Shown: positions 1-19,922 of the stretch, one piece after another
How the letters are laid out: every line of letters begins with the position of its first letter
How positions within the stretch are numbered: position 1 is the stretch's first letter
IMG/VR virus record: IMGVR_UViG_3300023184_007092
Span: 1 to 48,399 of that record
DNA length: 48,399 bases
Reading direction: 5' to 3' (one strand)
Source of the DNA: a virus
Program-made: the position numbers and the translations under genes
Notes under the pieces: model-generated
Told to the model about the DNA's origin: nothing
Database searches by the model: none
The model's input: only the letters and a program-made list of their open reading frames with translations

Positions 1-648
1 ATTATAAGCATTGCTTTTATGAATAATTGCTCTTATCATAGACTCATCGGAAAATCCATTTAAACCAGTAGCATCCGGAACATTTGTAAGGGATTCCTTG
101 TGGTCAAAAACATTTAGATTCTTCCAGTCTTTCCACATAATAAAGACATCTTCAGAAAATTTATTTCCTACTAAAAAGCTTTCAATACTAGAGGAAGGAT
201 CAAACAGATAAGAGAATTCAATTCCATTACCGGTCATATTACTTATTGGGATTTTTCCTTCATCTGGGGTGTTATTATAAACCTCATTACCTACAAATAA
301 TATTTTACCATCCTCGTATTCTTTACTCAGATTAGTAACAAAATCCGACTGAAGTGGAATTGTATCTATATCTTCAATCATTGATACTTCGTTTTTAAAA
401 AAACAAGCTAATACGTGTCTACAGATCTTGGCTTGATTTGCTGAAGGTATCGAGGGATCTTTTGGAAAAATATAAACCTCACCAAAAGAACTTATTTTCT
501 TAAATATTGGATCTTCTAAATCCCTGTTAGTAACAAATGCTAAGGTAATCTTAGCATTTGGTAAAAATTTATTCCATGCTTTGGCTACTATTGGCCAAAA
601 ATTTAAAAAATCTGAATCGTCAGAGCTTACAATTATTCTATTAATCAT
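1..648 (-). CDS. Glycosyltransferase-like protein, partial (C-terminus off left edge)
   Basis: An uninterrupted reading frame on the minus strand starts with ATG at 648 (MINRIIVSSDD) and runs off the left edge, so the C-terminus is missing. Its N-terminus (VSSDDSDFLNFWPIVAKAWNK) resembles that of the gene at 9219-9956, and it has an acidic EDIDTIPLQSD motif matching SDMDMLPISGD there, so the two look like paralogues. A DxD-type motif in a Rossmann-like N-terminal half suggests a GT-A nucleotide-sugar transferase. The start overlaps the stop of the preceding WbqC-like gene by 8 nt (ATGATTAA), the same overlap used by two other genes in this cassette. Substrate cannot be told from sequence. Confidence 0.75.
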   Translation of the reverse strand, partial: MINRIIVSSDDSDFLNFWPIVAKAWNKFLPNAKITLAFVTNRDLEDPIFKKISSFGEVYIFPKDPSIPSANQAKICRHVLACFFKNEVSMIEDIDTIPLQSDFVTNLSKEYEDGKILFVGNEVYNNTPDEGKIPISNMTGNGIEFSYLFDPSSSIESFLVGNKFSEDVFIMWKDWKNLNVFDHKESLTNVPDATGLNGFSDESMIRAIIHKSNAYN

Positions 649-1201
649 TTAGTATATCTATTATAGGTTTATTAATCATGGTTTCGGTATTCTGGAAAAC
701 AACTTCTATCCCGTTTTTTTTAAATAAAGGAAGATCTAAATATTTTTTTCCAGATACACCAGAGATATATTGGGTTGCTCCGTTTTTTAAACATATATCA
801 ACAAGTCTTTCAGTAGATAAAAGATCCGTTGGATAATCTAATACAATTTCGGTTTTCATTTGAAGCATCTCCTTAATCTTGACTATAATACCAACATTAG
901 TTGAAGATAGGTTATCAGTAATACATGAATCAAATTCGTTAAGTAATTTCCTATATTTAGGTAGAGAATTTTTAATTCTTTCCCAGTCTTTCAATGGATT
1001 AAGATATGATTTAGTATTAATAGGATCTAGTCCTTTATTTACTGACATTGTATACCATTTGCAATCCTTATTAAACCTGTTTTGATAATTATTTTTTTCA
1101 AATTGACAATGTGTAAGTATAACAAATACATCTGCATCATTCATTTTTTGAAAAAAAGGATAATAAGGAAAAAAATTTGGCTGGTGTATGGATATTATCA
1201 T
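641..1201 (-). CDS. WbqC-like family protein
   Basis: 186 residues that open with the WbqC signature MIISIHQPNFFPYYPFFQKM, followed by ADVFVILTHCQFEKNNYQNR and, near the end, CLKNGATQYISGVSGKKYLD and FKKNGIEVVFQN; all are conserved WbqC-family blocks. WbqC proteins occur in O-antigen and polysaccharide loci of bacteria; their reaction is not well settled, though amino-sugar modification or transfer has been proposed. Full length looks close to a compact family member. It lies within the glycan cassette, 5 nt downstream of a methyltransferase and overlapping the next glycosyltransferase by 8 nt, which fits a role in making or attaching an unusual sugar. Confidence 0.85.
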   Translation of the reverse strand: MIISIHQPNFFPYYPFFQKMNDADVFVILTHCQFEKNNYQNRFNKDCKWYTMSVNKGLDPINTKSYLNPLKDWERIKNSLPKYRKLLNEFDSCITDNLSSTNVGIIVKIKEMLQMKTEIVLDYPTDLLSTERLVDICLKNGATQYISGVSGKKYLDLPLFKKNGIEVVFQNTETMINKPIIDILND

Positions 1202-1206
1202 GTTCT

Positions 1207-1692
1207 TTATTTAATGTATCCCCAGTAATCAGAGGTTTCATAAAAAACTATATCCTTATTCAATATTCTTGAAATCTCTATTGCTAATTTTTTTTCAGAC
1301 TCCCTATAGGTATCATGAAATATAAAGGACGAATTTTTATCAAAAAGATCTATATTTTTAATTAACCCGTTTCTATTTCCCTCGCCCGATGGACCATCAA
1401 CAAAAACTAATGAATAATCTTTTGGTAAAAAATCCTTAACCAATTCCCTATTATACCATATTCCATCATTTGGAGCATGTAAATAATTAACACCAGGAAA
1501 TATATTTACGTAATCTTTATTCTCGTCTATTGAATAGGTATCGTAATATAAAGAGAAAGCTTTGGTACTACAATATCCAGCCCCGAGTTCTACTATAGAA
1601 GATCCTTCAGTGATTTTTGATATTATAAATTCAAAAAGCTCTTTTTCTATTCCTGATCCTCCCCATTTATGGTCGTTTAATTCTATTTTCAT
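1207..1692 (-). CDS. SAM-dependent methyltransferase-like protein
   Basis: 161 residues with a class I methyltransferase fold start: SSIVELGAGYCSTKAF is motif I (GxGxxS-type), followed by an acidic strand end (YSIDEN) and a motif IV-like FVDGPSGEGN. The HD in SFIFHDTYR is also typical of small class I enzymes of the Methyltransf_24 kind. It overlaps the upstream methyltransferase by 4 nt (ATGA) and so is translationally coupled. The substrate is unknown; in this context an O- or N-methylation of a sugar is plausible. The protein is short, with little beyond the Rossmann core, so it may work with a partner. Confidence 0.7.
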   Translation of the reverse strand: MKIELNDHKWGGSGIEKELFEFIISKITEGSSIVELGAGYCSTKAFSLYYDTYSIDENKDYVNIFPGVNYLHAPNDGIWYNRELVKDFLPKDYSLVFVDGPSGEGNRNGLIKNIDLFDKNSSFIFHDTYRESEKKLAIEISRILNKDIVFYETSDYWGYIK

Positions 1693-2246
1693 TTGTTCAT
1701 ATAAATTGTAAAATCATTATCCAGATAATCATGTCTAACAGTAAAAGATCTGCTTGTAGGGTAAATCATAGAAACAACCTCCTGAATCTTAGCATATTTC
1801 ATTACTTTATCCCTGTTTCCCTTTGTACGATCAGAAAGAAAATTAAAAGCAGTACCTTTTTTAGATAGCTCGTACATTTTATCAATATGTAAACGAGTGT
1901 TCTTTGTCCATTTATTCTTGAAGCAAAAAATTCCAGATGCAAAAACCCAATCGTAGCTATCAGTTATAGAAAAAATATCGCAATTTAGAAAATTGGCATC
2001 ATTGTATTTCTTCTTAGCTTTGTCTATAGCGATTCCCCTTAGGTCTATACCAGTATAGTTATCTACATATTTAGACAAATCCCCATATCCACATCCTACG
2101 TCAAGAACACTATCACCCCTTTTATAACCTGGTATTTGTAAAAGTATTTCAAATCTTTTCTCCTGTGAAAACTTACTTCCCCATCCTAGTGATTTTACAT
2201 CACTAGACGATTCAAATTTATCTCTATAAATTTTATCTAAATTCAT
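1689..2246 (-). CDS. Class I SAM-dependent methyltransferase
   Basis: 185 residues. Motif I is VLDVGCGYGDLSKYV, the motif II acidic residue is in YTGIDLRGIAID, and NCDIFSITDSYDWVFASG matches motifs III-IV of Methyltransf_25-type enzymes. These are the SAM-binding parts; the acceptor-binding C-terminal region (FTVRHDYLDNDFTIYM) is not diagnostic. 4-nt overlaps with both neighbours place it firmly in the minus-strand glycan operon. Likely role: methyl transfer to a sugar or other small acceptor during glycan synthesis, inferred from context only. Confidence 0.85.
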   Translation of the reverse strand: MNLDKIYRDKFESSSDVKSLGWGSKFSQEKRFEILLQIPGYKRGDSVLDVGCGYGDLSKYVDNYTGIDLRGIAIDKAKKKYNDANFLNCDIFSITDSYDWVFASGIFCFKNKWTKNTRLHIDKMYELSKKGTAFNFLSDRTKGNRDKVMKYAKIQEVVSMIYPTSRSFTVRHDYLDNDFTIYMNK

Positions 2247-2800
2247 TTAAACCATTCAATAAATTGATCAAAATTAAATTCTCTAGCATGCAAATACCAT
2301 TTTTTGTGATTTGAATCAAAATTATTATATTCCATGCATAGCCACCCATCCTCAAATTTAATCAATTCAATTCCGTGCTCCTTACATATATCATCAGTAT
2401 CATTGTTCCATTTATTAAAAGGAGGTATGAATATTTTTGATTTTGCAAGACTTGAGCTTACCAAAATGCTCATCTCCTGAGCTTCTTTATTTAGAAGTCT
2501 GTGGTCTACGTGAACTAATCCATGTGAAGCCATTTTAGCTCTAGAATGAAGATCAGGTAAACCTGCTTTATCCACGTCATAAAATTTCCTATAATCTGAA
2601 TAAGCATTTAAGATCTTAGGAAATATCCTTTGCTTACCTATTTCAGTTTTTTCTGAGGACATATCGTTAACTAATGGAGAAACTCCCCATAATACTTCAC
2701 ATTCAGGAAATCTATCAAAAAGGAAGTCAGTCATAGAATTTATTAATTCCATATCTGCATTTATACAAACGTCATCAAATCTAAATATTATTTTTTCCAT
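2243..2800 (-). CDS. Polysaccharide deacetylase (NodB)-like protein
   Basis: 185 residues. FRFDDVC near residues 6-12 gives the NodB motif 1 Asp pair (D9, D10); ASHGLVHVDHR near 91-101 supplies the HxxxH metal ligands (H93, H97) and FIPPFNKWN near 124-132 matches motif 3 (usually RxPxG/Y, here PPFNKWN). The C-terminal WYLHAREF resembles the His motif 5. The enzyme would remove N- or O-acyl groups from a sugar. Similar short NodB-like proteins are common in polysaccharide loci. It overlaps the neighbouring genes by 4 and 13 nt. No signal peptide is seen, so it would act in the cytoplasm on a precursor. Confidence 0.8.
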   Translation of the reverse strand: MEKIIFRFDDVCINADMELINSMTDFLFDRFPECEVLWGVSPLVNDMSSEKTEIGKQRIFPKILNAYSDYRKFYDVDKAGLPDLHSRAKMASHGLVHVDHRLLNKEAQEMSILVSSSLAKSKIFIPPFNKWNNDTDDICKEHGIELIKFEDGWLCMEYNNFDSNHKKWYLHAREFNFDQFIEWFK

Positions 2801-3633
2801 AATTGATCAATCAGTTGTTTAACTCTTATTTTATATGTGTGGGATTTAGAAAGCTCGTATCCGGAATCACCTATTGTTTTTAAAATAGAAGGATTTTCTT
2901 TTACGTCTTTTAATATCCTCCTAATGTCTTCTATACTATTATAGATTAAACAGTTTTTTTCGTTTATAAATCCAAGGCTTTCATAAACATCGTTATTGCT
3001 AGTTAGAAGAACAGTTCCAGTTCCTATTGTTTCAAAGTTTCTATAGTTTATATCATTTAACATGTTCTTGTTAAAATGTATTCCATATTCATTAATAGCT
3101 CTAACCATAGATTCTCCTATAACAAATATATCTTGCTTCATGCTGAATTCGGAAGTAATCGTATCTATAAGATCTTTTCTGTTAACATAATTACCACAGA
3201 ATCCTATGAAGTGTTTTTTATCTACGTTCATATTTTTAACTAGATCATCATCAAAACAATTAGGAAACCATATATGATAATTCTTCCTTACAAAATCTTT
3301 GGTAGAGTGTAACAAGAAATTATATCTACCAGAAGAGAATGTATTTTCGTATATTTCTTCGCCTCTACAATGAGCATCTATACTCCAAAGCAATTTAATA
3401 GGTTTATTGAATTCAGATAAATTAGGTACCCATCCGATAGAATCATAATTCTCTATATTCATTATTAGATCATAGGAATTCCAATCCGGGGTATTATTAT
3501 AATTTGAATGTCCCAATCCCCATACATCACACCAATGGCCATTATTTATAAATGCTCTTTGAAGGCTTAAGCATTCTCTAAAATTTTTATTCTCCTCGTG
3601 CCTTCCCGCTTCTTGTATAATAATAACTCTCAC
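2788..3633 (-). CDS. CgeB-like glycosyltransferase
   Basis: 281 residues starting at a GTG codon (3633) within a GTGA overlap with the upstream gene. The C-terminal part NYRNFETIGTGTVLLTSNN, YESLGFINEKNCLIYNSIEDIRRIL and HTYKIRVKQLIDQL follows the CgeB/Glyco_trans_1-like pattern (conserved E of the GT-B C-terminal domain, then a spaced Arg near the end). The N-terminal half has LLWSIDAHCRG and HSTKDFVRKN, like other proteins of this family. It probably transfers a sugar from a nucleotide donor. Position between a deacetylase and another transferase supports a place in one glycan pathway. Confidence 0.8.
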   Translation of the reverse strand: MRVIIIQEAGRHEENKNFRECLSLQRAFINNGHWCDVWGLGHSNYNNTPDWNSYDLIMNIENYDSIGWVPNLSEFNKPIKLLWSIDAHCRGEEIYENTFSSGRYNFLLHSTKDFVRKNYHIWFPNCFDDDLVKNMNVDKKHFIGFCGNYVNRKDLIDTITSEFSMKQDIFVIGESMVRAINEYGIHFNKNMLNDINYRNFETIGTGTVLLTSNNDVYESLGFINEKNCLIYNSIEDIRRILKDVKENPSILKTIGDSGYELSKSHTYKIRVKQLIDQLWKK

Positions 3634-4301
3634 GATCCTTGTAAATATTTTCTAAGTATATCGGAATTTTCCTTAACTGGCTGATCCTCGTCATTGTATT
3701 GTTGACCAATAAAATCGTCAAAATCACATCTTTCCTTTGGAAATTTTAATCCGCCAAAAAATTCATCATGTATCATACAATTATTATTAACCCTTGGCCA
3801 TATTTGCTCTCTAAGATACCTTTGATCCTCCTGATATTCATCTTGGTAAGTACTGATAATTTCAAGACTAAGTGGATCCCCTAGATCTATCATTTTATTT
3901 TTAACTCCCCACATACCTCCAAGTATTTCAGTATTATGATAAGGATGATCTCTCATTATATGAAATGCCTTATCACTTCCAATCCATTGATTTACTGCCA
4001 GTAATTCTCTTTCGGAAAGACGTGAATCGCAATCCCTTACAATTGTAACATCTATTGATTTATCAAAAGCAGGTATAAACCTCCAGAAGAGTCCTCTTTT
4101 CTCATCAGATGATTCTATCTCGATAACTCTAGCATTTGGATATGATTTTAATTTATCAACATGTTTTTTATTAGAATCTGATCTTATATAAAAAAAGCAT
4201 ATCCATTCAGGATACAACTGTAAAGCTAATTCGCAATTTCTAAAAGCACCTATAAAGTATCTCTCGTGTTCTCCCCAAAGAGAAAAAGATATTATTTTCA
4301 T
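3630..4301 (-). CDS. Putative glycosyltransferase (GT-A like)
   Basis: 223 residues beginning MKIISFSLWGEHERYFIGAFRN, which resembles a family of uncharacterised proteins in capsule and LPS loci. TIVRDCDSRLSERE gives a DxD-like triad after a beta strand, and AFHIMRDHPYH followed by ILGGMWGVKN looks like the acceptor side of a GT-A enzyme. The DxD would bind a divalent metal and nucleotide sugar. Product and donor are unknown. It follows the FkbM-like gene by 1 nt and overlaps the CgeB-like gene by 4 nt. Confidence 0.65.
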   Translation of the reverse strand: MKIISFSLWGEHERYFIGAFRNCELALQLYPEWICFFYIRSDSNKKHVDKLKSYPNARVIEIESSDEKRGLFWRFIPAFDKSIDVTIVRDCDSRLSERELLAVNQWIGSDKAFHIMRDHPYHNTEILGGMWGVKNKMIDLGDPLSLEIISTYQDEYQEDQRYLREQIWPRVNNNCMIHDEFFGGLKFPKERCDFDDFIGQQYNDEDQPVKENSDILRKYLQGS

Positions 4302-4302
4302 T

Positions 4303-4989
4303 TTAATATATTAAAAGCTCTCTTTCCTTTGTAGGCCATACTTTCATTACAGATATTTCTTCTAGATTATATTCGTAAAATTCAGAAGCCAATTCATTCT
4401 TACAAAATACTAGGTTTAACCCGTCAGTAAATCCTACTAATTTATATCCTTTCTTATCAGCTAATTTCTTATATGCACCAGCTGTAGCGCTATAGTAAGA
4501 GTCTAGTTGATGTATATGATCCTTATCGTACTTTATAGCTAAACTAGCTGTTGATGGATAATTAGAATTATATTCAACCATTACTACTTTTGGTGAATAA
4601 TTCTTTAATGATTCCCATACCCAAAGATCATTTCCGTCTATATCTATGGATACAAAATCAAAATCTTTTTTCAGTTTGGTAGGCTTTAAAATTTCGTCCA
4701 AGGTACTTCCTGACTCGCAGCTAATAAAGCTATCTAGGATTTGAATATTTTTATACCCCTTAATATTTTCTTTTATCCTATCAGAATATAATGGATCTCC
4801 TTCGATTAAAACACCACCCCATCCTTCTTCTCTCAATTTTCTAGTATTACAATATGACATTCCATCTGATGCTCCAAATTCGCAGAATTGTCCTTCTTTT
4901 ATTCCTAATGTTTGGAAGAGTTTTTCTAGTATACCATCTTCTCCAGATTGTGAGTATTTACTATTTCTGTATTCGTTAAGTCTTATCAT
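4303..4989 (-). CDS. FkbM-like SAM methyltransferase
   Basis: 228 residues. The opening SKYSQSGEDGILEKLFQTLG with GQFCEFGASDGMSYCNTRKL is a typical start of FkbM-related proteins; the E and G-rich loop are the SAM site. FDFVSIDIDGNDLWVWESL carries the IDIDG motif of the family and KVVMVEYNSNYPS matches the next conserved strand. FkbM relatives methylate hydroxyl groups in natural products and glycans. The protein is about the usual length for a complete domain. It sits between two glycosyltransferases, so an O-methyl sugar cap is a reasonable guess. Confidence 0.8.
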   Translation of the reverse strand: MIRLNEYRNSKYSQSGEDGILEKLFQTLGIKEGQFCEFGASDGMSYCNTRKLREEGWGGVLIEGDPLYSDRIKENIKGYKNIQILDSFISCESGSTLDEILKPTKLKKDFDFVSIDIDGNDLWVWESLKNYSPKVVMVEYNSNYPSTASLAIKYDKDHIHQLDSYYSATAGAYKKLADKKGYKLVGFTDGLNLVFCKNELASEFYEYNLEEISVMKVWPTKERELLIY

Positions 4990-4992
4990 AAA

Positions 4993-6234
4993 TTATTTTT
5001 TTGGTAATATAAAAATACATCCTCTCATATTTTGTTCTGAGTATGTATTATATTCAATCTCGTATCCATCAGATCCGTAAATTCCTTCTATTTTTTCTTT
5101 GATCCATTCCCATTCGTACACAATTCCTTGGTTTGGATATTCATCATATCCAAGATCTGGTCTTTCAGGAACCTTAAAATCATGTATAGCAAGAACTGGC
5201 TTTAATCCAGATTCTTTAATTCTGTCAAGTTCTTGTAAAACAGGATTAGCATACCAATGTGCATCTAAAAAAATTATAGAATTGCAATCTTTAGTCTCAT
5301 CTAAAAACTTACCTAAATAATCTGTACTACTACCAAGATAGCTATGGATATTGGGATAATCCGATATCTGTTGTTTAGCTACATCTAGATATCTCTGGTC
5401 GTATTCCACTGTATAGACATTTTCAAAATTTTCAGCTAACCATTTTGTAGTGTCCCCGTGATATGTTCCAGTTTCTATTGCGGATTTAATTTTATATTTT
5501 TTCTTAAAATCTAAAAACCTTTTTGCCAATTTTGCGTCTGTATTAAACGCTCTGATTTGTTCGCTCATTTTTGTTTTGTTTTTTTCTATATATTTTATTG
5601 CATCAGGCAATAGATGTTTAGCATGGAATCCGAAAGAATTATTTATTGTATGATCAGAATCTATAGATATTTCAACCGAAAACTTTTTTGCTAATTCTAC
5701 AGGAGCAATTTTTAGGTTAGCTACATTAACAGATTTTCTATTGGTCTCCAGTATATACTTATCCTCATTTTGCATAGTGGGGAAAAGCTTAGAGCTAAAT
5801 TCAAGAAACCTTTTGCTCCTTATACAGAATCCTCCGTTTCCTACCTGTGTTTCTTCTGTTGTATTACCAAGGCCAATTGGCCAAGGAGCTCCTATATAAT
5901 CATAATCCAAAAAAGAAGAATCCCAAAGATTATGATTTAATATGAACCCATCATCTTGAATAATCATACAAAAATCAGTACTAATATAAGGGTTTAGCCT
6001 TCTCATACAAAAATTAGAATACTCAGAAATACTATGTAGCTTTTCTATTTTTACTATCTCAACACCCGCAAAATCATAATCAATATGACTAAAAAATAAA
6101 GACTTTTTAAAATTAAATCGATTAAATATATGTGCAAAAATACTCCGATATAAAAGAGTCCTTTCTTTATTATAATCCCTACCGTCTATACAAACTAGGG
6201 TTACGTTATCTAAATTTATTTTTTGCTTACCCAT
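4993..6234 (-). CDS. Two-domain protein: DUF5672-like glycosyltransferase plus SAM methyltransferase
   Basis: 413 residues made of two parts. Residues 1 to about 215 resemble DUF5672: NLDNVTLVCIDGRDY, then FCMIIQDDGFILN (metal-binding-like DD), YDYIGAPWPIG and VGNGGFCIRSKRFLEF, all conserved in that family. Residues about 245-413 are a class I methyltransferase with SAIETGTYHGDTTKWLA as motif I, VYTVEYDQRYLD as motif II and SIIFLDAHWY as motif IV. One chain could add a sugar and methylate it. The start overlaps the upstream GT2-like gene by 19 nt. Confidence 0.8.
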   Translation of the reverse strand: MGKQKINLDNVTLVCIDGRDYNKERTLLYRSIFAHIFNRFNFKKSLFFSHIDYDFAGVEIVKIEKLHSISEYSNFCMRRLNPYISTDFCMIIQDDGFILNHNLWDSSFLDYDYIGAPWPIGLGNTTEETQVGNGGFCIRSKRFLEFSSKLFPTMQNEDKYILETNRKSVNVANLKIAPVELAKKFSVEISIDSDHTINNSFGFHAKHLLPDAIKYIEKNKTKMSEQIRAFNTDAKLAKRFLDFKKKYKIKSAIETGTYHGDTTKWLAENFENVYTVEYDQRYLDVAKQQISDYPNIHSYLGSSTDYLGKFLDETKDCNSIIFLDAHWYANPVLQELDRIKESGLKPVLAIHDFKVPERPDLGYDEYPNQGIVYEWEWIKEKIEGIYGSDGYEIEYNTYSEQNMRGCIFILPKK

Positions 6235-6938
6235 TCTATTATTTCATTAGGTATAATTCCTTTTATTATAGAATTGTCTATATCAAAATTATTAGCTAAT
6301 CTCAAAATAAAATTATCCATTCCCTTATAAAATGTTGATTGATTCTTATCATCTACTGAATCCCTGTCATGATGTAGTTTAGAGTAATGCAGATGATTGA
6401 ATGTAAATTTATTTCCATCAATCACGCATCCTAGTAAATGTGCAACACATGTTAATTCGGTATCGCAAAACATATGATTATAAGACGGATGATAGATGTA
6501 ATCAAAACTATCTAAATATTCTCTAGAAAATATAGGCATAGTTATAAGGATTTCCCCTATTCCATCAGATGTTTTAATCACATATTTTCCTTCCAAATTT
6601 TTAGAGAAATTAATAATATCCATATCCCAATCTAAAAAACAATCGGTGTCATCAGAAAATATTAAAATAAGATCACCGTCTATGTGAGATTTTCCTGCAT
6701 TTATTGCATTTACTGTGCATCTATTATCATTTACTATTATAGATAGTTCTGTATTATATTCCTCAGAAATAGGGATAAGTAAAGAATGGTATTGCTCTAC
6801 TGTAGGATCATCTGAATCAATTGATATTATAGTTTTTATTAACGATGGATTTTTTGAATTCTTCATCCATTTTTTAAAAACCTTTGCCATTCTTACAGGT
6901 CTTTGTCTGGAAGCAGCTATTAAATTTATTTTTTTCAT
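6216..6938 (-). CDS. Glycosyltransferase family 2-like protein
   Basis: 240 residues. The N-terminal KINLIAASRQRPVRMAKVFKKW, a strand ending in IISIDSDDP, then AINAGKSHIDGDLILIFSDDTDCFLDWD form a GT2-like GT-A layout: the second acidic set (SDDTD) is the DxD equivalent that holds metal and nucleotide sugar. The SRxRP opening is typical of phage and LPS-locus relatives. It overlaps the fucosyltransferase-like gene upstream by 4 nt (ATGA). Donor and acceptor are not visible from sequence. Confidence 0.75.
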   Translation of the reverse strand: MKKINLIAASRQRPVRMAKVFKKWMKNSKNPSLIKTIISIDSDDPTVEQYHSLLIPISEEYNTELSIIVNDNRCTVNAINAGKSHIDGDLILIFSDDTDCFLDWDMDIINFSKNLEGKYVIKTSDGIGEILITMPIFSREYLDSFDYIYHPSYNHMFCDTELTCVAHLLGCVIDGNKFTFNHLHYSKLHHDRDSVDDKNQSTFYKGMDNFILRLANNFDIDNSIIKGIIPNEIIEWVSKK

Positions 6939-7780
6939 ATATTTTTTATCTTGTCAAAAAGAAGTGAATCTGACGAAATTTGGTTTTTTACTCTTTCTAA
7001 GTTATCCTTTATCGAATCAATCTTTGATTCATATAATTCCCTAGTCAATTTGCTAAAATCAAATCCCTCTTCCCATTTAATAATACCGTCTGGATTAAAG
7101 TCCTCAAATATTTTATCAGTGCCCCAATAAATTGGAATTGTTCCAAGTGCAAAACAGTCGGTAATTTTTTCGGTATAGTACTTGTCTATTTTAGCATTTT
7201 CAAATACAATAGAAAACATATAGTTAGATAAAGCATCTTCTTTAGACCTCCACCAATCCCTGTTTGGCCCTAATCCCTCTCCTATACGTAAACTACCAGA
7301 AGCACCGCCAAAAAGATCAAAATTAGTTCTATGTTTTTCTGCAACATCTAATCTTATTTTATGCCCACTGGTCATACTTTTAGAACTACAGATCATAGAG
7401 CAAATCCTAGTTTTATCTGGTATTCTAAATTTTTCTTTAGGTGTCCACGGAAGATTTGATCCTGGGGGATTAAACATAAAGAAATCAGAATCCCATGAGA
7501 TTATTTCATAATCAGATGTGAATATCTTTACAAACTTTCTTTTAAGCAACTGGATATTGTTTTTGATATATTCTTTTAAAGAAGGAAGGATTTCACTAGA
7601 TTCGCAAAACCATCCAAAGCTTCTTTCTTGTGATAATAGATTAAATGACATTATCTGGTTGTCTATAACAACATTAGCTATTCCCTCACTTCTCGACCAT
7701 TCAAAATTCTCTGGTTTAAAATTAGAGCAAGAGGAATACTCTATTGGGAATGGCGCCCAATTGGTTTTTAGTTTGTTCAT
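6935..7780 (-). CDS. GT10 (alpha-1,3-fucosyltransferase) family protein
   Basis: 281 residues. The C-terminal block is diagnostic for GT10: YMFSIVFENAKIDKYYTEKI followed by DCFALGTIPIYWGTD and FNPDGIIKW. The Glu of FEN and the Lys of TEKI are the donor-binding residues in known family members. Upstream, RICSMICSSKSMTSGHKIRLDV matches the segment before that domain (S.R...R in relatives). GT10 enzymes transfer fucose from GDP-fucose; whether this one uses GDP-fucose is not shown. No GDP-fucose synthesis genes are in view, so the donor would come from the host or another region. Confidence 0.9.
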   Translation of the reverse strand: MNKLKTNWAPFPIEYSSCSNFKPENFEWSRSEGIANVVIDNQIMSFNLLSQERSFGWFCESSEILPSLKEYIKNNIQLLKRKFVKIFTSDYEIISWDSDFFMFNPPGSNLPWTPKEKFRIPDKTRICSMICSSKSMTSGHKIRLDVAEKHRTNFDLFGGASGSLRIGEGLGPNRDWWRSKEDALSNYMFSIVFENAKIDKYYTEKITDCFALGTIPIYWGTDKIFEDFNPDGIIKWEEGFDFSKLTRELYESKIDSIKDNLERVKNQISSDSLLFDKIKNI

Positions 7781-8589
7781 ACTAAATTATAATTTGTTAC
7801 GTTTCCAGGAAAAGGCCTGTTCATATTTACTGCTCTCATTTTCAAAAGTATTTCCCTTTTATTTGGTACATCAGAATTTACATTTTCTAAATTCTCTCCT
7901 TTATGTAGATTAGAGCCACATAGATTTATTCTAACCCTATCCCTGTAATATGGTAAAATAGAATGCTTTAATGCGTCATGATCTAATTCGCATTCTCCCC
8001 TTTCTACTCTTCCTGTACAATGAGATTCCCATTGATTAACAATAAGATTTGTTACCTCAGTATTAGAAAAGTACACAGGGGAGGCAACAAAACAATCCAT
8101 TGAATTGCTATAAGAAACAAGTCCCAGGTCAAAGGATTTATTCTTATCGGTTAATTGACTAAGGTTTGTTTTTAAAAAAGTATCTCCATCGATCCAAAGG
8201 ACATTCTTTTTTGTGCTATTTAACATGGATTGAATAAAATAAGGTTTATAACAGCAGTTTTGGAAATAATTACGGTCACTTTCATAATGACAAAAAATGT
8301 AATCGTATCCTAGTGAATCTACTTTATTTACTAGCTCCGTGAATTTTTCGGAATAGAAATTAGAACCGATTGGATCAGAAACAAACGAAATAATTACATC
8401 ATCCTTTCCAGTTATTTTTTCCCATTTTTTTACAATTTTTCTTTCTCTTGAATTTTTAAATGGTTTAAATAATTCTTCACTCGCGTCTTTTTTATTTATT
8501 TGATTATTAATGACTGGTGTAGTTTGAGGTTGAACTTTGTCTAAATTTACTATTCTACTTCCTACTCTTTTTATTTTAAAGTTACTCAT
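7777..8589 (-). CDS. GT-A nucleotide-sugar transferase-like protein (paralogue 1 of 3)
   Basis: I place the start at the ATG at 8589 (MSNFKIKRVG), because it gives the same ATGAGTAA overlap with the upstream stop as the next gene; the longer frame from 8607 would begin with TTG. The core has YKPYFIQSMLNSTKKNVLWIDGDTFLK, where WIDGDT is a DxD motif. The same layout (KxxFI......WIDADT / YVDVDA) is seen in the genes at 8582-9226 and 9958-10581, so the three are paralogues. A Lys/Arg-rich N-terminal extension of about 60 residues precedes the domain. Donor is unknown. Confidence 0.7.
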   Translation of the reverse strand: MSNFKIKRVGSRIVNLDKVQPQTTPVINNQINKKDASEELFKPFKNSRERKIVKKWEKITGKDDVIISFVSDPIGSNFYSEKFTELVNKVDSLGYDYIFCHYESDRNYFQNCCYKPYFIQSMLNSTKKNVLWIDGDTFLKTNLSQLTDKNKSFDLGLVSYSNSMDCFVASPVYFSNTEVTNLIVNQWESHCTGRVERGECELDHDALKHSILPYYRDRVRINLCGSNLHKGENLENVNSDVPNKREILLKMRAVNMNRPFPGNVTNYNLV

Positions 8590-9226
8590 AATTTTTAAAA
8601 TTTTCAAGGGACAAAGAATTAAACAAATCAGATCTTCTTTGGTTCTTTGTCATGGTTATTTTGGTTTCAGCACCTTTATTAAGTGCACGGGAAACACCAT
8701 TTCTAATATATTTTCCGTCAGTATAATCTACCGAGGAACCCCCGCATCCTAATATCTCTATACTTATTTTTTCTTTGAACAAAGGAAGTATCTCATATTT
8801 TAATACATCGTGATCGAGATCTACATCATTTACAGAAATCTTAGAATTACATATTTCTGAAAATCTAGAAAATAATTCTAGATTCCTCTCGTTGTATTTT
8901 ATACCAAGTGGGGATGCCTTTATTCCATGAAGATCTCCTGTATGTGATGCAGCTAATATATCGAATTTCCAATTTTTCATACAATCTGTATATCCCAATA
9001 AATTAGTATCAGCATCTATCCATATAATATCTTCCTTTATTTCATTTAGCTTATCCAATATAAATTTTGGTTTCCTGAGTGTATTTTTCCAATAATACCC
9101 AGTATCCTGAATCCTGTCCATTATAATCTTACCCCCTAGTATTTCTATTTGAGAAACTAGTTTTTCTGCACATCCAATATAATAAGGTGAGCCTGTATGG
9201 TAAGAAACAAATATAGGATTACTCAT
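8582..9226 (-). CDS. GT-A nucleotide-sugar transferase-like protein (paralogue 2 of 3)
   Basis: The preferred start is ATG at 9226 (MSNPIFVSYHTGSPYY), overlapping the upstream stop by 8 nt (ATGAGTAA); the longer frame to 9235 would use TTG. The core RKPKFILDKLNEIKEDIIWIDADTNLL contains the WIDADT metal-binding motif, and VNDVDLDHDVLKYEILPLF matches the VERGECELDHDALKHSILPYY segment of the gene at 7777-8589, which shows clear common descent. It is a soluble enzyme without membrane segments. Reaction and acceptor are unknown. Confidence 0.7.
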   Translation of the reverse strand: MSNPIFVSYHTGSPYYIGCAEKLVSQIEILGGKIIMDRIQDTGYYWKNTLRKPKFILDKLNEIKEDIIWIDADTNLLGYTDCMKNWKFDILAASHTGDLHGIKASPLGIKYNERNLELFSRFSEICNSKISVNDVDLDHDVLKYEILPLFKEKISIEILGCGGSSVDYTDGKYIRNGVSRALNKGAETKITMTKNQRRSDLFNSLSLENFKNYE

Positions 9227-9956
9227 AAATTCCAAGTTTTATAAAAAGTGTTTTACAAATTTCTAAATTAGATGTCAGTGGTCTTGGCAAATGACAATCT
9301 ATATATTCCCATGCGTTATAGTCAGTTTTTGGCCAGATTGCTTTATCTAATCTCTTAGTAGCATATTTTTCTTCTATCCATCCTCTATCTAAATGTCTGA
9401 TCCTAACATTATGTTTTTTTAATGTTTGATTATAAAAGAACTTCTGGTCTGTACCAAATCTTAAATTCTTTTTAATAAGTCTTCTGAAAAATTGTTTATG
9501 GTCTTCATCTCGAAGCTCTAATAGATCAATAAAAGATTGCGGATCGCCTGCCAGATAACACATAGGATATTGAGGATTGGTCCTGTACCACCTGTAATTT
9601 ATAACGTCAGAACTATAAGAAACTATTCCTTTGTCCTCTATTTTAGCAGCTCCCTCTTTATAATAATCTCCAGATATTGGGAGCATATCCATATCAGAAA
9701 TAATAAATGGACCATCTAAAAGCTTTGCAGCCCAAAATCTAATACATTGTGCTTGTTGTGATATTTCCCATTCAGGAATAGATTCTAAATATATTGTTCT
9801 GCCACATTCTGCCACATTATCTGGTGGCGGAGCTGAATCTATATACAAAAGAACAGGTTCTATTCCGATCTTCTGCCACATTTTTGCCACATAGGGCCAA
9901 AAATCTAGATATTCTTTATTGGAATTAGAACTGACTACTGCATACTTTAATTGCAT
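9219..9956 (-). CDS. Glycosyltransferase-like protein, paralogue of the partial gene at 1-648
   Basis: 245 residues. N-terminal KYAVVSSNSNKEYLDFWPYVAKMWQKIG resembles the partial protein at the left edge, and LDGPFIISDMDMLPISGDYY carries the DxD triad. FGTDQKFFYNQTLKKH and HLDRGWIEEKY lie where GT-A enzymes bind the acceptor. Two members of this type at opposite ends of the same cassette suggest successive sugar additions by duplicated enzymes. The start is the first gene after a 1-nt gap from the gene at 9958. Confidence 0.7.
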   Translation of the reverse strand: MQLKYAVVSSNSNKEYLDFWPYVAKMWQKIGIEPVLLYIDSAPPPDNVAECGRTIYLESIPEWEISQQAQCIRFWAAKLLDGPFIISDMDMLPISGDYYKEGAAKIEDKGIVSYSSDVINYRWYRTNPQYPMCYLAGDPQSFIDLLELRDEDHKQFFRRLIKKNLRFGTDQKFFYNQTLKKHNVRIRHLDRGWIEEKYATKRLDKAIWPKTDYNAWEYIDCHLPRPLTSNLEICKTLFIKLGIYE

Positions 9957-9957
9957 T

Positions 9958-10581
9958 CTATCTTTTTCTAATTATACCTCTAGATTCTAAATTATTTCGA
10001 TGTACGTTCCTTGATTCTTGATAATGCTCTATTACAGGACGAAGTCCCGGGTACATTGTTCTGGTGTGGTCAAAAATATAAGTGTATTCCGGAGGTAAAT
10101 TGTAATACACTAAATCCTTAAACTCCCTATGCGAGGTTTGCATATTTTTTTGTTCCCATGTCTCAGGCTTCATTCTTTCAGCAGGGACGGATTCATTTAT
10201 TTGGATCCATCTATCAACAAAGGCTTTAACCTTATCGTTGTTCTTTAGAAATATCGTACCAGATAAGGCTTCATCCTTTCTCCATCGGAAGTCTTCTGTT
10301 CTGTATGCAAGATCACAACTTAATGTATCAATAAGACTTGGGTAGTTCTTAAATACTGCGTCCACATCAACATAGAGAAGATCTAGATTTCTGTCGTTTA
10401 GACATTTCTTAATAAAATAAGCTTTGTAGTGTGTATTCTTCTCCCATGAACCCTGATCTTTAATTGGTTCTAAATAATGGGGTAATCCAAAGTCTTGAAG
10501 CGATTTTTTTAACTTCTCTGCTAAGACTTGGTAAGAAGTGTTTTCTGTGTAATATGCGATGACTAAAAATTGGGGGCTCAT
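9958..10581 (-). CDS. GT-A nucleotide-sugar transferase-like protein (paralogue 3 of 3), first gene of the cassette
   Basis: 207 residues. PIKDQGSWEKNTHYKAYFIKKCL and LDLLYVDVDAVFKNYPSLI match the two paralogues downstream, with DVD as the metal-binding motif; LAYRTEDFRWRKDEALSGTIFLKNN follows as in nucleotide-diphospho-sugar transferases. It is the most upstream gene of the 15-gene minus-strand cassette, so the cassette promoter should lie in the 160-nt divergent gap to its right. No host-type TAnnTTTG box is obvious there on the minus strand. Confidence 0.7.
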   Translation of the reverse strand: MSPQFLVIAYYTENTSYQVLAEKLKKSLQDFGLPHYLEPIKDQGSWEKNTHYKAYFIKKCLNDRNLDLLYVDVDAVFKNYPSLIDTLSCDLAYRTEDFRWRKDEALSGTIFLKNNDKVKAFVDRWIQINESVPAERMKPETWEQKNMQTSHREFKDLVYYNLPPEYTYIFDHTRTMYPGLRPVIEHYQESRNVHRNNLESRGIIRKR

Positions 10582-10741: not shown

Positions 10742-11452
10742 ATGATTAAACCCTATTGGTTTCTAGATTCTCCTATTGACGCCGAGCATAAGTACTACAT
10801 TCTTATGGACTTTCTTGTAAAAGTAAAAAACAAAATGAACAAGAAAGGATTTGAAAAAGCATATAAAGAATTATTATGCTTAAGAAAGGATCTAGAAAGT
10901 TTTGATAAAAATACCGAATTCACACAAAGAACTGTTATGAGTATGACAGATTCTGAAAAAAATACGTTTTACAACCTATTAGATAAAAATCTAGACAGTA
11001 TAGAAGAGATTACAAAAATTGTAAAAAATTCAATAGAGGTTATAGATAAATTTATAGACGAAAACAAAGATGCACAGGAAAAATATAACTCACTGGTCGA
11101 AGTTGAAAGCTATTGTCAAAGATACAATCTTTGGGACCAAGGATTTCTTATTGTAAGAAAAAAGGAGGAAAAATTTATGAAGGTGTTTAGTTGGTTTTTT
11201 TCTATGATAAAAGTAGAGGATAAAGAAAAAGTAGCTTTACTAATGACAGAAATGCTAGATCCTAGATGTGAAACAACAGCAGAAATTAAATCAATAAAGT
11301 CTTTTTTAGAAACTAATATAAAAGATTTTTCTGAAAAATTCGATTGTTTATTAATAGCAGATGTAAATAAAGGTGTAGATCTAGAAGTTGGAACTGAAAT
11401 AGGGAAGGAGAAATCTATAGAGATTATTCTACGAAATTTTAAAAATGCTTAA
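10742..11452 (+). CDS. Hypothetical coiled-coil protein
   Basis: 236 residues, not recognised. It is rich in Lys, Glu and Asp, with long predicted helices at about 20-60 and 75-130 (heptad-like EEITKIVKNSIEVIDKFIDEN) and a Trp-rich patch FMKVFSWFFSMIKV near 145-160. No signal peptide or clear transmembrane segment. It is alone on the plus strand between the glycan cassette and a minus-strand pair, and its stop overlaps the stop of the next gene by 4 nt in a convergent arrangement. It lacks the capsid-targeting-like N-terminus of its neighbours. Confidence 0.7.
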   Translation: MIKPYWFLDSPIDAEHKYYILMDFLVKVKNKMNKKGFEKAYKELLCLRKDLESFDKNTEFTQRTVMSMTDSEKNTFYNLLDKNLDSIEEITKIVKNSIEVIDKFIDENKDAQEKYNSLVEVESYCQRYNLWDQGFLIVRKKEEKFMKVFSWFFSMIKVEDKEKVALLMTEMLDPRCETTAEIKSIKSFLETNIKDFSEKFDCLLIADVNKGVDLEVGTEIGKEKSIEIILRNFKNA

Positions 11453-14146: not shown

Positions 14147-15631
14147 ATGGAAGATGCTTTACTAGAAAAATTTATTTTCAAAGGCGTAAAGGGAAAAGAA
14201 AGACCTTTAACTGTAGTTATTTTAACTACAAAGTTGGGTAAGAGTTTAAAAAATGCGCCAACTACAGAGAAGATAACTAAAATATGCGAAGAACGTGGAG
14301 TTAAGTGCATAATCGTTGATACCGAAAAAGGATCAATACAAAAAACTCCTAAAGGAACTTTCCTTATATCCAGCAGAGGTGATAAGCAGCAAGAAATTTA
14401 TTTAGATAGAACAATAGTTCTAACAAGAAGATCTTCTATTAAAAATAATGCAGCAAAGGGGTTTTTTAAGAAAATGGAGGATTTAGGCTTCCCTTGTGTA
14501 AACTCATATGATTCTGTTATAATATGTGAGGATAAACTCCAAACTACTAGAAAATTACAACTTAATAATATACCTGTACCAAAAACATCACTTATATCTT
14601 CTGAAGCTGATATTGACAAAGCAGTTGAAGATGTTGGAGGTAAATACCCTGTAGTTTGTAAATTCCTTTCCGGAACTAAAGGTATTGGTGTATTTATGAT
14701 CGATTCAAGACCTTCTCTAGTTTCTACACTACAAGCTCTTTGGCACTTAGCTCCTGAAACTGAAATAGTTTTACAGGAAAAAATTGATGCTGAATATGAC
14801 CTTAGAATACACGTAGTTGCTGAATCTGATGGTATGTCTGGTAGAGAGTACAAAGTCATCGCAGCGATGAAAAGAATTAAGATTGAAGGCGATTTTAGAA
14901 CTAACTTCTCACTAGGTGGAGACACAGAAACAGTAGAACTTCCTAAAGAGATAGAAAAAATTGCCATTGAGTCAGCAAAAGCTACTGGATGTCTATGGTG
15001 TGGTGTTGATATTATAGTAGATAAAGCAAACGAATCTCCATATGTACTAGAAGTTAACGCATCTCCGGGTACAACAGGCATAGAGAAAACTACAGAAATT
15101 CCTGTTACTGATCTTATATTAGACTTTTTATTAGATAGAAAAAACTGGGTTAAACCTAAAAAGGTTACAGGATTTAGGGAATTAGTTACCGTTCCTGGAG
15201 TTGGTACATTTGTTGGAAAACTTGATACTGGAAACGGAGCATCGTCTTGCTCTTTACACGCAGATTCAATTGAAGAAGCTGATGGACAAGTAAATTGGAC
15301 ATTGGGCAATCAGCAGTTTACTAATAAAATCGTAGGACAATCAAAAGCAGAGGTTGGCGAAAAAATTCACCACAGAGCAGTAGTAAATCTTGATATCGAA
15401 TTTAATGGTATAGTTTATAGAAAAGTTAAATTCTCCCTTGTTGATCGAACAGAAAAAAGCACTCCTCTTTTATTAAATAGAGATTTCTTAAGTTCAGCGG
15501 GTTTAATAGTAGATCCATCGGAGGACTTTGTAATTACTGATAGACCGGAAGGATATTCACCAAAAGATGCTAAAGGAGATCCTATAGCAGGTGTTGAAAT
15601 TGTTTTAGGCGGTAATGCCCCTAAGATATAA
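14147..15631 (+). CDS. RimK-type ATP-grasp ligase fused to a RimB-like (retropepsin-fold) domain
   Basis: 494 residues in two domains. Residues about 85-335 are RimK-type: FPCVNSYDSVIICEDK, IPVPKTSL, then the ATP-grasp core with KYPVVCKFLSGTKGIGV and the metal-binding YVLEVNASPGTTGIE. RimK ligases add glutamates to protein S6 or join other amino acids. Residues about 343-475 resemble the ATP-dependent zinc protease/RimB family (PF05618-like): GKLDTGNGASSCSLHAD supplies DTG at 360-362 and PLLLNRDFLSSAGLIVDPS the LLGRxFL-like block. The joined domains in one phage chain could add and trim peptide tails. It overlaps the convergent asparagine synthetase by 27 nt. Confidence 0.85.
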   Translation: MEDALLEKFIFKGVKGKERPLTVVILTTKLGKSLKNAPTTEKITKICEERGVKCIIVDTEKGSIQKTPKGTFLISSRGDKQQEIYLDRTIVLTRRSSIKNNAAKGFFKKMEDLGFPCVNSYDSVIICEDKLQTTRKLQLNNIPVPKTSLISSEADIDKAVEDVGGKYPVVCKFLSGTKGIGVFMIDSRPSLVSTLQALWHLAPETEIVLQEKIDAEYDLRIHVVAESDGMSGREYKVIAAMKRIKIEGDFRTNFSLGGDTETVELPKEIEKIAIESAKATGCLWCGVDIIVDKANESPYVLEVNASPGTTGIEKTTEIPVTDLILDFLLDRKNWVKPKKVTGFRELVTVPGVGTFVGKLDTGNGASSCSLHADSIEEADGQVNWTLGNQQFTNKIVGQSKAEVGEKIHHRAVVNLDIEFNGIVYRKVKFSLVDRTEKSTPLLLNRDFLSSAGLIVDPSEDFVITDRPEGYSPKDAKGDPIAGVEIVLGGNAPKI

Positions 15632-17026
15632 ATCAACTATTTTTTTTCTATAAGAAATCTGATCCTCTACGATCATTTGGTTTTTTAATGCTAATTTTTT
15701 TCTTTCAATTACAGAATCAGGAACTAGTCCTTTAAAAGTATCCTTTAATATTTTCTTGTGCTTTCTTTCCTCGAATGGTAAGCTTAAAGCAAATCTTATA
15801 ATATCGTGATTTAAAAAAGGGCTTCTTAGTTCTAATGTGTGAGCCATTGATAGTTTATCAAGTCTAGGAAGATGATAAGAAGTTAACTCGTGAAAAATAT
15901 CAGAATCCTGTGAATCATATTCATCTATTCTTCTATAACCGCCAAATAGTTCATCTGCTCCGTCTCCTGAAATTACAATACGTGTATTTGATCCTTTTTT
16001 AATTGCGTCAAATAAATGATATTGTGGGAGAACGCTTCCCATATCAACCGGTGATTCGTTCCATTTTCTATAAATCTCTATGATTTTTTTCTTACTCTCT
16101 TCACTCTCAATATCTACACTGTAATCTAGTCTTGTTGATTTTACGTCCCAATAATTTTCGCAGTCCTTTACAAACTGTTCGTCCTCCCCGTTTGATATTG
16201 AATAGAATTGAACATCTGCACCTAACTTAAGTAATAGCCCAGCAATAATCGATGAATCTAGTCCTCCTGATAATAAAAGAGACGTGGGGTAATTTTTTGA
16301 TAAAAGCCTAGATCTTACGGAGTTTTCTAAATTTTCCCATAGCCAATCCATTCTGTCTTCGTACGTTTCTAATCCTGCATCAAACGAATAAAAATTATAA
16401 TATGGATCGGATACTTCCATATTAGCAGGATAGTCAAAGCTCCAATGGTAGAACCTATTAGGCTCTAGCTTTTTGATAGCATTAAACGGAGTTTGGTTTG
16501 TAGGTAAATACCCCCATTTAACTACACCGCTAAAGAAAGAGGGATCAAAAGGTTCTTCAGCTTCTTTTTCGTAAAGCCCTTTTATTTCTGAACATATTTC
16601 ACCATCCTCGTTTTTATAAAGAACCTTTTTACCTAACGGATCAGTAAATGCGTAAACTTCTCTTGATTTGGTATCAACCAAAACAATTGCCCAAAAGCCA
16701 TCCCAAGATACTATACTTGGCTCGTATAAAGCTTTTAGCATTCCTATACCGCTAAAATTAAAGCTACTAAATAAATTCTGAAGATATGCAGTATCGGACT
16801 CAAAACGATTGTCATAATTAAAGATTTCTCCATTAAATAACATCCATCTGTTTTCCCCTATCTGTATAGGCTGTGACCAATTGTCTCCATCTAATGTTTG
16901 GATAGGTAATCTGTGATGTACCAAATAAAGATCCTGATCATTTACAATTGAATGTTCCGTACCTCTGTGAGCGATTGACATTATTCTTTCCTCACTGGGA
17001 TTTTTAGCAACTAAAATTCCACACAT
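15605..17026 (-). CDS. asnB: Glutamine-dependent asparagine synthetase
   Basis: 473 residues with both domains. Class II glutaminase: MCGI with nucleophile C2, then AHRGTEHS, LVHHRLPIQ and LFNGEIFNY. Synthetase: LLLSGGLDSSIIAG is the PP-loop (253-259) that binds ATP, and ISGDGADELFGGYRR (353-366) is the conserved aspartate-binding region. It would convert Asp, Gln and ATP to Asn. It is somewhat shorter than E. coli AsnB (about 554 residues), mainly at the C-terminus. Relatives also act as amide or lactam synthetases, so a role beyond Asn supply is possible. It is 2 nt from the next gene upstream. Confidence 0.9.
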   Translation of the reverse strand: MCGILVAKNPSEERIMSIAHRGTEHSIVNDQDLYLVHHRLPIQTLDGDNWSQPIQIGENRWMLFNGEIFNYDNRFESDTAYLQNLFSSFNFSGIGMLKALYEPSIVSWDGFWAIVLVDTKSREVYAFTDPLGKKVLYKNEDGEICSEIKGLYEKEAEEPFDPSFFSGVVKWGYLPTNQTPFNAIKKLEPNRFYHWSFDYPANMEVSDPYYNFYSFDAGLETYEDRMDWLWENLENSVRSRLLSKNYPTSLLLSGGLDSSIIAGLLLKLGADVQFYSISNGEDEQFVKDCENYWDVKSTRLDYSVDIESEESKKKIIEIYRKWNESPVDMGSVLPQYHLFDAIKKGSNTRIVISGDGADELFGGYRRIDEYDSQDSDIFHELTSYHLPRLDKLSMAHTLELRSPFLNHDIIRFALSLPFEERKHKKILKDTFKGLVPDSVIERKKLALKNQMIVEDQISYRKKIVDLYLRGITA

Positions 17027-17028
17027 AT

Positions 17029-17565
17029 TTAAAATTTGTTTATGTCTGTTTTAAAGCGCAATACTGAGTCCAAATCATGATTATTAGTGAAAGTCCTTAC
17101 ATCTACGCCTAAGTCCCGTAACAGCAAAGAAAACGATGTAAAAAGTGATTTTTCTTCTTCTCCTCTTATATCATCTTGATCCCAGATGTCTTTTGTTCTT
17201 TTGTCCTTTGATTGTCCCTCTATTAGGATTATTCTTGTACGCTTAAACAAGCCTCTTTCGTAAAATTTAATAAGATCGTTTTTTGCTTGCTTTTCTGTTA
17301 TTCTTTTTTGAAATACTCCCCAAACAGAGTTAGTTAAGATTCCTCTATCGACTATCATCTTTGGTAAAAATCCGGAATTGTCTAATTCATGAAGCATAAC
17401 TTCTTTACCTAAACCAAACCAATGTATATCTTTACCTTGCTTGTCAAAATTCCATGTAGCAAAGTTTGAATTAAAATCAAACTTAAAAACAGGAAGGGAA
17501 TCCTGCTGTGATATTAAATAGCTTTTACCGGACTTCCTTGGTCCTTCTACAATTAAAAGGGGCAT
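17029..17565 (-). CDS. P-loop NTPase, kinase-like
   Basis: 178 residues. LLIVEGPRKSGKSYLI contains a Walker A motif (GPRKSGKS, 8-15) and MIVDRGILTNSVWG resembles the DR box of dNMP/thymidylate-like kinases, with RTRIILIEGQSKDKR further on as the strand before a basic lid. Family assignment beyond P-loop kinase-like is uncertain. The start codon lies inside an 11-bp hairpin at 17559-17586. It lies upstream of asnB by 2 nt, so both are probably translated from one mRNA. Confidence 0.75.
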   Translation of the reverse strand: MPLLIVEGPRKSGKSYLISQQDSLPVFKFDFNSNFATWNFDKQGKDIHWFGLGKEVMLHELDNSGFLPKMIVDRGILTNSVWGVFQKRITEKQAKNDLIKFYERGLFKRTRIILIEGQSKDKRTKDIWDQDDIRGEEEKSLFTSFSLLLRDLGVDVRTFTNNHDLDSVLRFKTDINKF

Positions 17566-17586
17566 AATCTTTATTGATTATACCCC
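17559..17586 (-). promoter_or_regulatory. Hairpin that contains the start codon of the P-loop gene
   Basis: On the minus-strand RNA, GGGGUAUAAUC pairs with GAUUAUGCCCC through 11 bp (one G-U pair) around a 6-nt loop. The AUG at 17565-17563 is in the 3' arm and the stem is followed by UUUU. It could be an intrinsic terminator after the gene ending at 17610, a block on translation of the P-loop gene and asnB, or both. Confidence 0.7.
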
Positions 17587-17609
17587 TAAATTAATAAAAA
17601 TTTCTTTTA

Positions 17610-19271: not shown

Positions 19272-19291
19272 CGGATTATTATTTTTTTTAT

Positions 19292-19894
19292 TTACTTTTT
19301 AGAAGCAGAAGCTATTTTGTTTTTTAAGTCTTGTAAATCTTTTTGAGCTTTTGTCATTGTAGCTTCCATTTCGGTATTTACAAATGCTAATAGATCTGGA
19401 TTGCTTACCTTATCTCCTGAAGATTTTTTTAGGTTCTCGTAAGCAAGATTAATACTTTGCATACCCTCTTCTATTTTATTAAAAAAATCTTTAACCTGAG
19501 ATGATATACCAGCATCGGAAAGCCATGAAGTATTTTTTTTTGCTTCCGCTGAGGACATAACAGTTTCTGCAGCTTTTTTTGAATCTGACCATACAGAATT
19601 TAGCTCTTTAAAAATATCGTCAACCGATGAATTCTTTTTAAGTTTTTCTGTTTTTTCCATTAGTACTTTTAAACTCTCGTCTCTTGCAGAAGCTATTGGA
19701 CTTCCCAAAACAAATTTAAACACATTATCTTGTAACGTTTGGATTATCATCATAAGATACTTTTGAACCTTATCAGCTGGCATTTCAACTTTTTCTTGTT
19801 CGTATATAGAAAAAGTATGAGTAGGAGTTGAATATTTTTTCGCTTGATTTGAAAGTGATTCAAAAACCGGATTATTTAGAGATTTATTTGTCAT
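19292..19894 (-). CDS. Hypothetical helical protein of the head region
   Basis: 200 residues, mostly helix with charged coiled-coil character (MEKTEKLKKNSSVDDIFKEL, EATMTKAQKDLQDLKNKIASASKK). N-terminal MTNKSLNNPVFESLSNQ has no NE(S/G) site in the usual place. No family recognised. A candidate AATATATAA box precedes it by 19 nt. It is one of five helical proteins that follow the capsid gene, where T4 encodes none, but T4 internal and core proteins are of the same kind. Confidence 0.65.
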   Translation of the reverse strand: MTNKSLNNPVFESLSNQAKKYSTPTHTFSIYEQEKVEMPADKVQKYLMMIIQTLQDNVFKFVLGSPIASARDESLKVLMEKTEKLKKNSSVDDIFKELNSVWSDSKKAAETVMSSAEAKKNTSWLSDAGISSQVKDFFNKIEEGMQSINLAYENLKKSSGDKVSNPDLLAFVNTEMEATMTKAQKDLQDLKNKIASASKK

Positions 19895-19913
19895 CTTTGT
19901 TTTTATTTGTTTC

Positions 19914-19922
19914 TTATATATT
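19914..19922 (-). promoter_or_regulatory. Candidate late promoter box (AATATATAA)
   Basis: Minus-strand GAATATATAAG between the stop at 19926 and the start at 19894; an A-rich 19-nt stretch follows. It fits the shared box and would give a leader of about 14 nt. Confidence 0.5.

Follow-up and report, generated by a model that had tools for sequence, protein, structure and literature searches.

To what molecule does a phage attach the product of a whole cassette of glycan genes? The question is raised by a 48,399-base viral fragment (IMG/VR record IMGVR_UViG_3300023184_007092, without end repeats; hereafter the window), in which 15 minus-strand open reading frames (ORFs) tile positions 1-10581 in one tightly packed run. 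They comprise about ten glycosyltransferases (GTs), four methyltransferases and one WbqC protein (g1 to g15, Table 1). Comparison with related contigs shows this cassette to be an allele of a polymorphic, swappable locus with fixed borders. We interpret it as an exchangeable glycan-assembly locus of large aquatic phages, for which a virion protein, given a serotype-like coat, is the likeliest acceptor; we hold this answer with about even confidence.

Between the longest ORFs the spacing ranges from -26 to +5 nt with exact 4-nt overlaps in five cases, and when ATG starts are chosen for g3 and g4 both of their overlaps become 8 nt, in agreement with the 4- and 8-nt overlaps described in an earlier note on this DNA. 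The 15 genes of the window recur in identical order in a second phage (contig G002, locus L020) at 47-84% identity, and we therefore consider the cassette to be more than a chance array. The glycan-building phage operon proposed in the earlier note was thus borne out by the packed same-strand ORFs and by profile-supported GTs, methyltransferases and WbqC, and its GT10-, CgeB- and DUF5672-like proteins and its FkbM and a class-I methyltransferase were likewise recovered by profiles. Other parts of that proposal fared less well. The GT2-like assignment of g6 fell under the cut-off. The NodB call for g11, and with it a deacetylated glycan, goes back to a pattern seen by eye, and g11 matched nothing of this kind in Pfam, NCBIfam, PHROGs or the PDB sequences, although it may be a remote homologue. 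Nor does the count of enzymes allow one to infer a long oligosaccharide. The calls of g6, g9 and g13 as GTs or methyltransferases are weak, and g9 gave no match in profile searches.

Among the transferases, g5 matched the Helicobacter pylori alpha-1,3-fucosyltransferase (PDB 2nzw) at 2.6e-11 when searched with the family profile. The GT10 C-terminal domain and its donor motif were both found, and the motif FEN..YYTEKITDCFA.G..PIYWG is invariant in the alignment. Several DxD transferases had been noticed earlier, and hhalign placed g1, g3 and g4 in one GT-A family and g2 and g15 in another; a search with g3 and g4 against PDB sequences gave no significant match. The AlphaFold2 model of g1 (pLDDT 84) has a GT-A fold and that of g2 (pLDDT 74) a GT-A/nucleotidyltransferase fold, with tied best matches at Z 10.8. 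We considered g2 as a CMP-Kdo (3-deoxy-D-manno-octulosonate) synthetase, as KdsB heads this tied list, in which GlmU, IspD and a fucosyltransferase also stand. The assignment was not adopted: judged by eye, g2 is without the nucleotidyltransferase N-terminal signature, and its SDMDM and TDQ motifs are as in GT-A enzymes. The g7 protein is a fusion whose halves are two separate genes in relatives (G001, G002). In scans around the cassette, terminators equalled those in shuffled sequences and promoters lay slightly above them; hence we make no regulatory claim.

Relatives were collected by scanning viral contigs with g2, which yielded 19 loci, and most of their sequence was used. All genomes are metagenomic fragments; genes are longest ORFs called greedily, protein families are clusters at 38% identity and 60% coverage, and membrane segments were predicted by a hydropathy scan. 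The left border of the locus is constant and consists of a divergent gene (Table 1) followed by g1 and g2. Hardly less constant is the right border, which comprises GDP-mannose 4,6-dehydratase (GMD), a KdsD-type sugar isomerase, KdsA and a GT2, and beyond these come small genes, a NUDIX gene and baseplate genes; the distance from g1 to the right border is about 9 to 19 kb. Of 17 right borders, 15 have GMD, 16 have KdsD and 13 have KdsA, often with GDP-fucose synthase. The GMD proteins score above the NCBIfam equivalog cut-off and KdsA above one of its equivalog cut-offs, and the KdsA core aligns to solved KdsA; the GDP-fucose synthase match reached 5e-130, yet stays under its strict cut-off. 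The earlier note had seen no nucleotide-sugar synthesis. In relatives these four enzymes close the locus, beyond the point at which the window is cut, and in G002 g15 directly precedes GDP-fucose synthase, GMD, KdsD and KdsA. The missing donor genes are thus an effect of truncation, the window probably ending just ahead of them.

A GT10 or GT11 fucosyltransferase is encoded in all 19 contigs. Further functions found in other alleles are a nucleotide-sugar dehydrogenase, aminotransferases, a sugar-phosphate cyclase, a PIG-L deacetylase and the product of a GT29-like gene, and a cytidylyltransferase, closest to PseF, occurs only in G005-G007. We infer from this gene content that the common theme of the cassettes is a fucose-containing glycan with allele-specific decoration. 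A distant parallel was seen in the uncultured phage LR756500 (L107, 110-150 kb), in which a g1-like domain within an 837-residue ORF is followed on the same strand by KdsA and a KdsD-like domain; accordingly, the link between g1 and the Kdo genes may be old.

The 17 closed cassettes hold 94 protein families, 25 of them singletons, and only g1 and g2 are present in ten or more. Since several contigs are near-duplicates (G005/G006/G007, G004/G020, G014/G016 and G010/G018), the number of independent cassettes is about twelve. Downstream of g2 two types are found, g3-g4-g5 in 11 contigs (one with a small intervening ORF) and the GT2-like family c47 in eight. In G013 and G016 the flanks are 94-98% identical, including 31.5 kb on the right side, and nothing is shared from the end of g2 to the GDP-fucose synthase gene. 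G012 and G002 likewise combine flanks of 91-92% identity with unrelated cassettes. The reverse holds for G001 and G003, which share 10,370 bp of cassette at 98.0% and have flanks of just 66-75%; in this part-cassette transfer the left breakpoint lies within the cassette, before g8. Whole-cassette swaps have their breakpoints at g1, where g2 ends, and within the GDP-fucose synthase gene, so the border genes look like recombination anchors. A tree built from nine right-flank proteins shows four changes between the two types, as against an average of 5.2 with shuffled labels (22% of which give four or fewer), and cassette type is thus tied loosely, at most, to phage descent. We conclude from these alignments that cassettes are exchanged by recombination between phages.

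It could be objected that the variation was created during metagenomic assembly. The contigs are indeed metagenomic, and a search of genome contigs with the g2 profile found just one, L110 (JAQCAB010000017.1) from a Bacteroidetes metagenome-assembled genome, in which 1.5 kb of the phage locus (6893-8567) sits within an interrupted type I restriction gene, hsdR. This piece is most likely an assembly chimera, and we did not use the contig as evidence of a host. An artefact is nevertheless extremely improbable as an explanation of the locus: both left junctions are seen repeatedly (in 11 and 8 contigs), G014 and G016 agree at 98-99% in flank as well as cassette and come from different metagenomes, the locus is identical in G006 and G007, and the window and G002 keep one order of 15 genes in spite of their divergence.

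On what, then, is the glycan assembled? Among the 306 cassette genes none (0/306) encodes two or more membrane segments, which leaves the locus without a flippase, polymerase, ligase or membrane priming enzyme. The acceptor is probably cytosolic. In relatives the locus lies between head genes and baseplate/tail genes, embedded in the virion-gene block and on the same strand. Furthermore, the best PDB matches of the g1 fold are structures of A064R-D1, a GT of the major capsid glycan of chlorovirus PBCV-1 (PMC9614988), with Z 16.0 and a root-mean-square deviation of 3.0 over about 180 residues, compared with 14.5 for the next group, glycogenin. An FkbM methyltransferase gene ranks with the capsid gene among the most highly transcribed genes of freshwater Bacteroidota phages to which ours may be related (PMC9723584). 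The membrane, location and fold arguments favour a virion protein, short of proof.

The main rival to a virion acceptor is remodelling of the host surface during infection (the O-chain or core of lipopolysaccharide, LPS, or a capsule), by which other phages would be excluded or virions prevented from adhering to debris. Cyanophage and pelagimyophage clusters have been read in this way (PMC7824862, PMC7029224), KdsD and KdsA of the right border are LPS-core enzymes, and cytosolic GTs are also able to extend lipid A-core. Against this stand the lack of any gene for lipid-linked assembly or export and the same-strand position of the locus among virion genes, and we regard host-surface remodelling as a serious but minority possibility. 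Several observations weigh in turn against the virion protein. A fold shared by g1 and A064R-D1 does not demonstrate function, and the published readings just cited concern similar clusters. CMP-Kdo synthetase (KdsB) was absent from most contigs searched, so the Kdo branch could serve host LPS. Finally, the search for an acceptor yielded none. The products of 17610-19271 and 19292-19894, beside the head genes, evolve faster than their neighbours (25-54% identity and variable length, against 70-90%); both candidates were dropped because they are, by eye, among the internal-head-like proteins and have no family match.

A third acceptor would be the phage DNA, glycosylated as in hypermodified phages. 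Viral GTs that act on DNA are known (discussed in PMC12619734), and G013 and G017 carry a thymidylate synthase-family gene (PF00303). However, PF00303 occurs in just two of 17 partial contigs and belongs also to ordinary nucleotide metabolism, and a DNA-modifying system that lies in the virion block, includes the synthesis of nucleotide sugars and swaps ten or more enzymes as alleles would be unusual. We consider this very unlikely.

For a virion acceptor the following course of events can be proposed. The cassette operon would be expressed together with the late virion genes, and g1 and g2 would assemble a constant inner sugar unit on an acceptor in the cytosol. To this unit the enzymes of the variable part, among them in every case a GT10 or GT11 fucosyltransferase, would add allele-specific and often methylated outer sugars. 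Enzymes of the right border make the donors, GMD and GDP-fucose synthase for GDP-fucose and KdsD and KdsA for Kdo-8-phosphate. Whole or part cassettes are replaced via recombination in the shared borders, and the glycan on the virion protein would give each phage a serotype-like coat. In its specific form, namely virion serotypes with a constant g1/g2 inner glycan, an exchangeable outer cap, a coat switch in one recombination event between the conserved border genes and selection on the virion surface, the proposal is tentative and somewhat short of an even chance.

The locus has the hallmarks of a phage glycan cluster: several GT families, nucleotide-sugar enzymes (in relatives) and a content that varies between related phages. 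Cyanophage P-SSM2 has a 15-gene cluster of polysaccharide/LPS type (PMC7824862), S-SCSM1 has GDP-fucose genes (PMC9602691) and S-SCSM2R carries KdsA, KdsB, GT10 and GT11. With the clusters of such T4-like jumbo cyanophages our locus shares many GT families, nucleotide-sugar dehydratases/epimerases, GDP-fucose genes, fucosyltransferases and Kdo genes, as well as polymorphism between related phages. It differs in lineage, in its one fixed site within the virion block, in its constant borders and in the replacement of cassettes as shown by breakpoints. Moreover, hardly any of 50,697 phage records matches g1 or g2, and among the papers searched none dealt with phage kdsA, kdsD and fucose synthase together. 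The hypervariable host recognition island of pelagimyophages also lies in the structural region, contains GTs and tail fibres, and was described as diverging gradually, not by complete replacement (PMC7029224); in our locus, by contrast, the genes that vary are glycan genes, with no fibre genes among them, and the replacement has been both complete and recent. PBCV-1 (A064R; PMC9614988) is similar in its virus-encoded soluble GTs and methyltransferases, and its capsid glycan, with a conserved sugar core that includes fucose and variable outer sugars, can be likened to the cassette. It differs as a eukaryotic virus with scattered genes and 11-14% sequence identity, and attachment to the capsid is shown there, whereas for the cassette a virion protein is the likeliest acceptor.

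Bacterial O-antigen and capsule loci have conserved flanks, a variable middle, recombinational type switching, and nucleotide-sugar genes beside GT genes. The phage locus resembles them in its evolution, having the same layout and type switching, and is unlike Wzx/Wzy-type loci in that none of the membrane assembly enzymes named above was found. What is new here is the replacement of whole cassettes between fixed borders, documented directly by breakpoints, the pairing of a constant g1-g2 start with a common fucose theme, and the fully soluble enzymes.

Table 1. Positions and assignments of the cassette genes and of the neighbouring features in the window.
Feature	Position	Strand	Assignment and remarks
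g1	9958..10581	-	GT-A glycosyltransferase, DxD (D72-x-D74); invariant first gene; 18 contigs
g2	9219..9956	-	GT-A-like transferase, SDMDM motif; invariant second gene; 20 contigs, 68-75% identity
g3	8582..9235	-	GT of g1 family (hhalign 98.4% to g1); TTG start, or ATG three codons on
g4	7777..8607	-	GT of g1/g3 family (hhalign 99.9% to g3); TTG start or internal ATG
g5	6935..7780	-	GT10 fucosyltransferase-like; PF00852 2e-7, above cut-off
g6	6216..6938	-	GT2-like, weak; PF00535 E 0.04, under cut-off
g7	4993..6234	-	DUF5672 (putative GT) and methyltransferase fusion; PF18922 2.3e-20, Methyltransf_24 0.002
g8	4303..4989	-	FkbM-type methyltransferase; PF05050 6e-6
g9	3630..4301	-	Putative DxD GT, by eye, weak; 75-90% conserved in three relatives
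g10	2788..3633	-	CgeB/GT4-like GT (Glyco_trans_1_2); GTG start; PF13524 1.7e-12
g11	2243..2800	-	NodB-like by eye only, unconfirmed; 84% identical in G002
g12	1689..2246	-	Class-I methyltransferase; PF13847 9e-8
g13	1207..1692	-	Methyltransferase-like, by eye, weak; no significant match in profile searches
g14	641..1201	-	WbqC family; PF08889 1.9e-27
g15	1..648	-	GT homologous to g2 (hhalign 96%); cut by contig end; 276-284 residues in relatives
Left-border gene	10742..11452	+	Divergent from cassette; constant, found in 18 contigs; no function assigned
Virion-gene block	15605..46014	-	Left of locus; T4-like; head, portal, fibre and head closure (PHROG matches)

The virion-gene block of the window encodes, by PHROG matches, a major head protein, a fibre, two adjacent portal-like proteins and head closure. 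The portal pair (41323-44574) consists of two neighbouring genes that each match portal family phrog_213 (9e-58 and 3e-56), and the pair is retained in G001 and G004; the closest named record of the portal is the 462-kb LR756500, at 42% identity. An ATP-dependent DNA ligase gene (39892-41214; phrog_114, 5e-79) also lies within the block. At 13464-15631 a RimK-like ATP-grasp protein (phrog_2599), apparently with an additional C-terminal domain, shows 67-92% identity in relatives and adjoins a 205-residue protein composed mainly of Glu, Asp, Ser and Thr; one idea is a glutamate ligase that works on an acidic virion protein. In the regions 11449-14081 and 20191-21063 several protein N-termini resemble, by eye, the capsid-targeting sequence of T4 (MKNIRSFNDFVVNES, MIYRYSQFVNES, MSIKKLDEFDNLNEG), and on account of these starts the proteins may be internal or ejected head proteins. 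In G012 (L041, about 10.5-12.4 kb) families c204 (aminotransferase-like) and c205, both of which are cassette genes in G008, lie beside a fibre gene; glycan genes can thus also adjoin a fibre.

The phages studied here are likened to moraphages (PMC12619734) and bS21 phages (PMC9723584), which are large and aquatic, have Bacteroidota as predicted hosts and carry T4-like structural genes. Contig G004 (IMGVR_UViG_3300013132_005385) has a ribosomal protein S21 gene at 105196-105348, as in freshwater bS21 phages (PMC9723584). HSP70 was not found in 14 partial contigs, nor glutamine synthetase in 17.

Glycan clusters on large phages are known and are usually listed as auxiliary LPS genes. Phages that are 94-98% identical outside the locus and carry wholly different sugar-coat genes constitute a natural experiment, as does the 10.4-kb part-cassette found in phages with flanks of only 66-75% identity, and the purpose of such clusters becomes testable because phages that differ only in the cassette can be compared. 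In moraphages four GT groups belong to the core, and there are variable islands whose content was left unexplained (PMC12619734); if our contigs do belong to moraphages, such cassettes may account for some of these islands.

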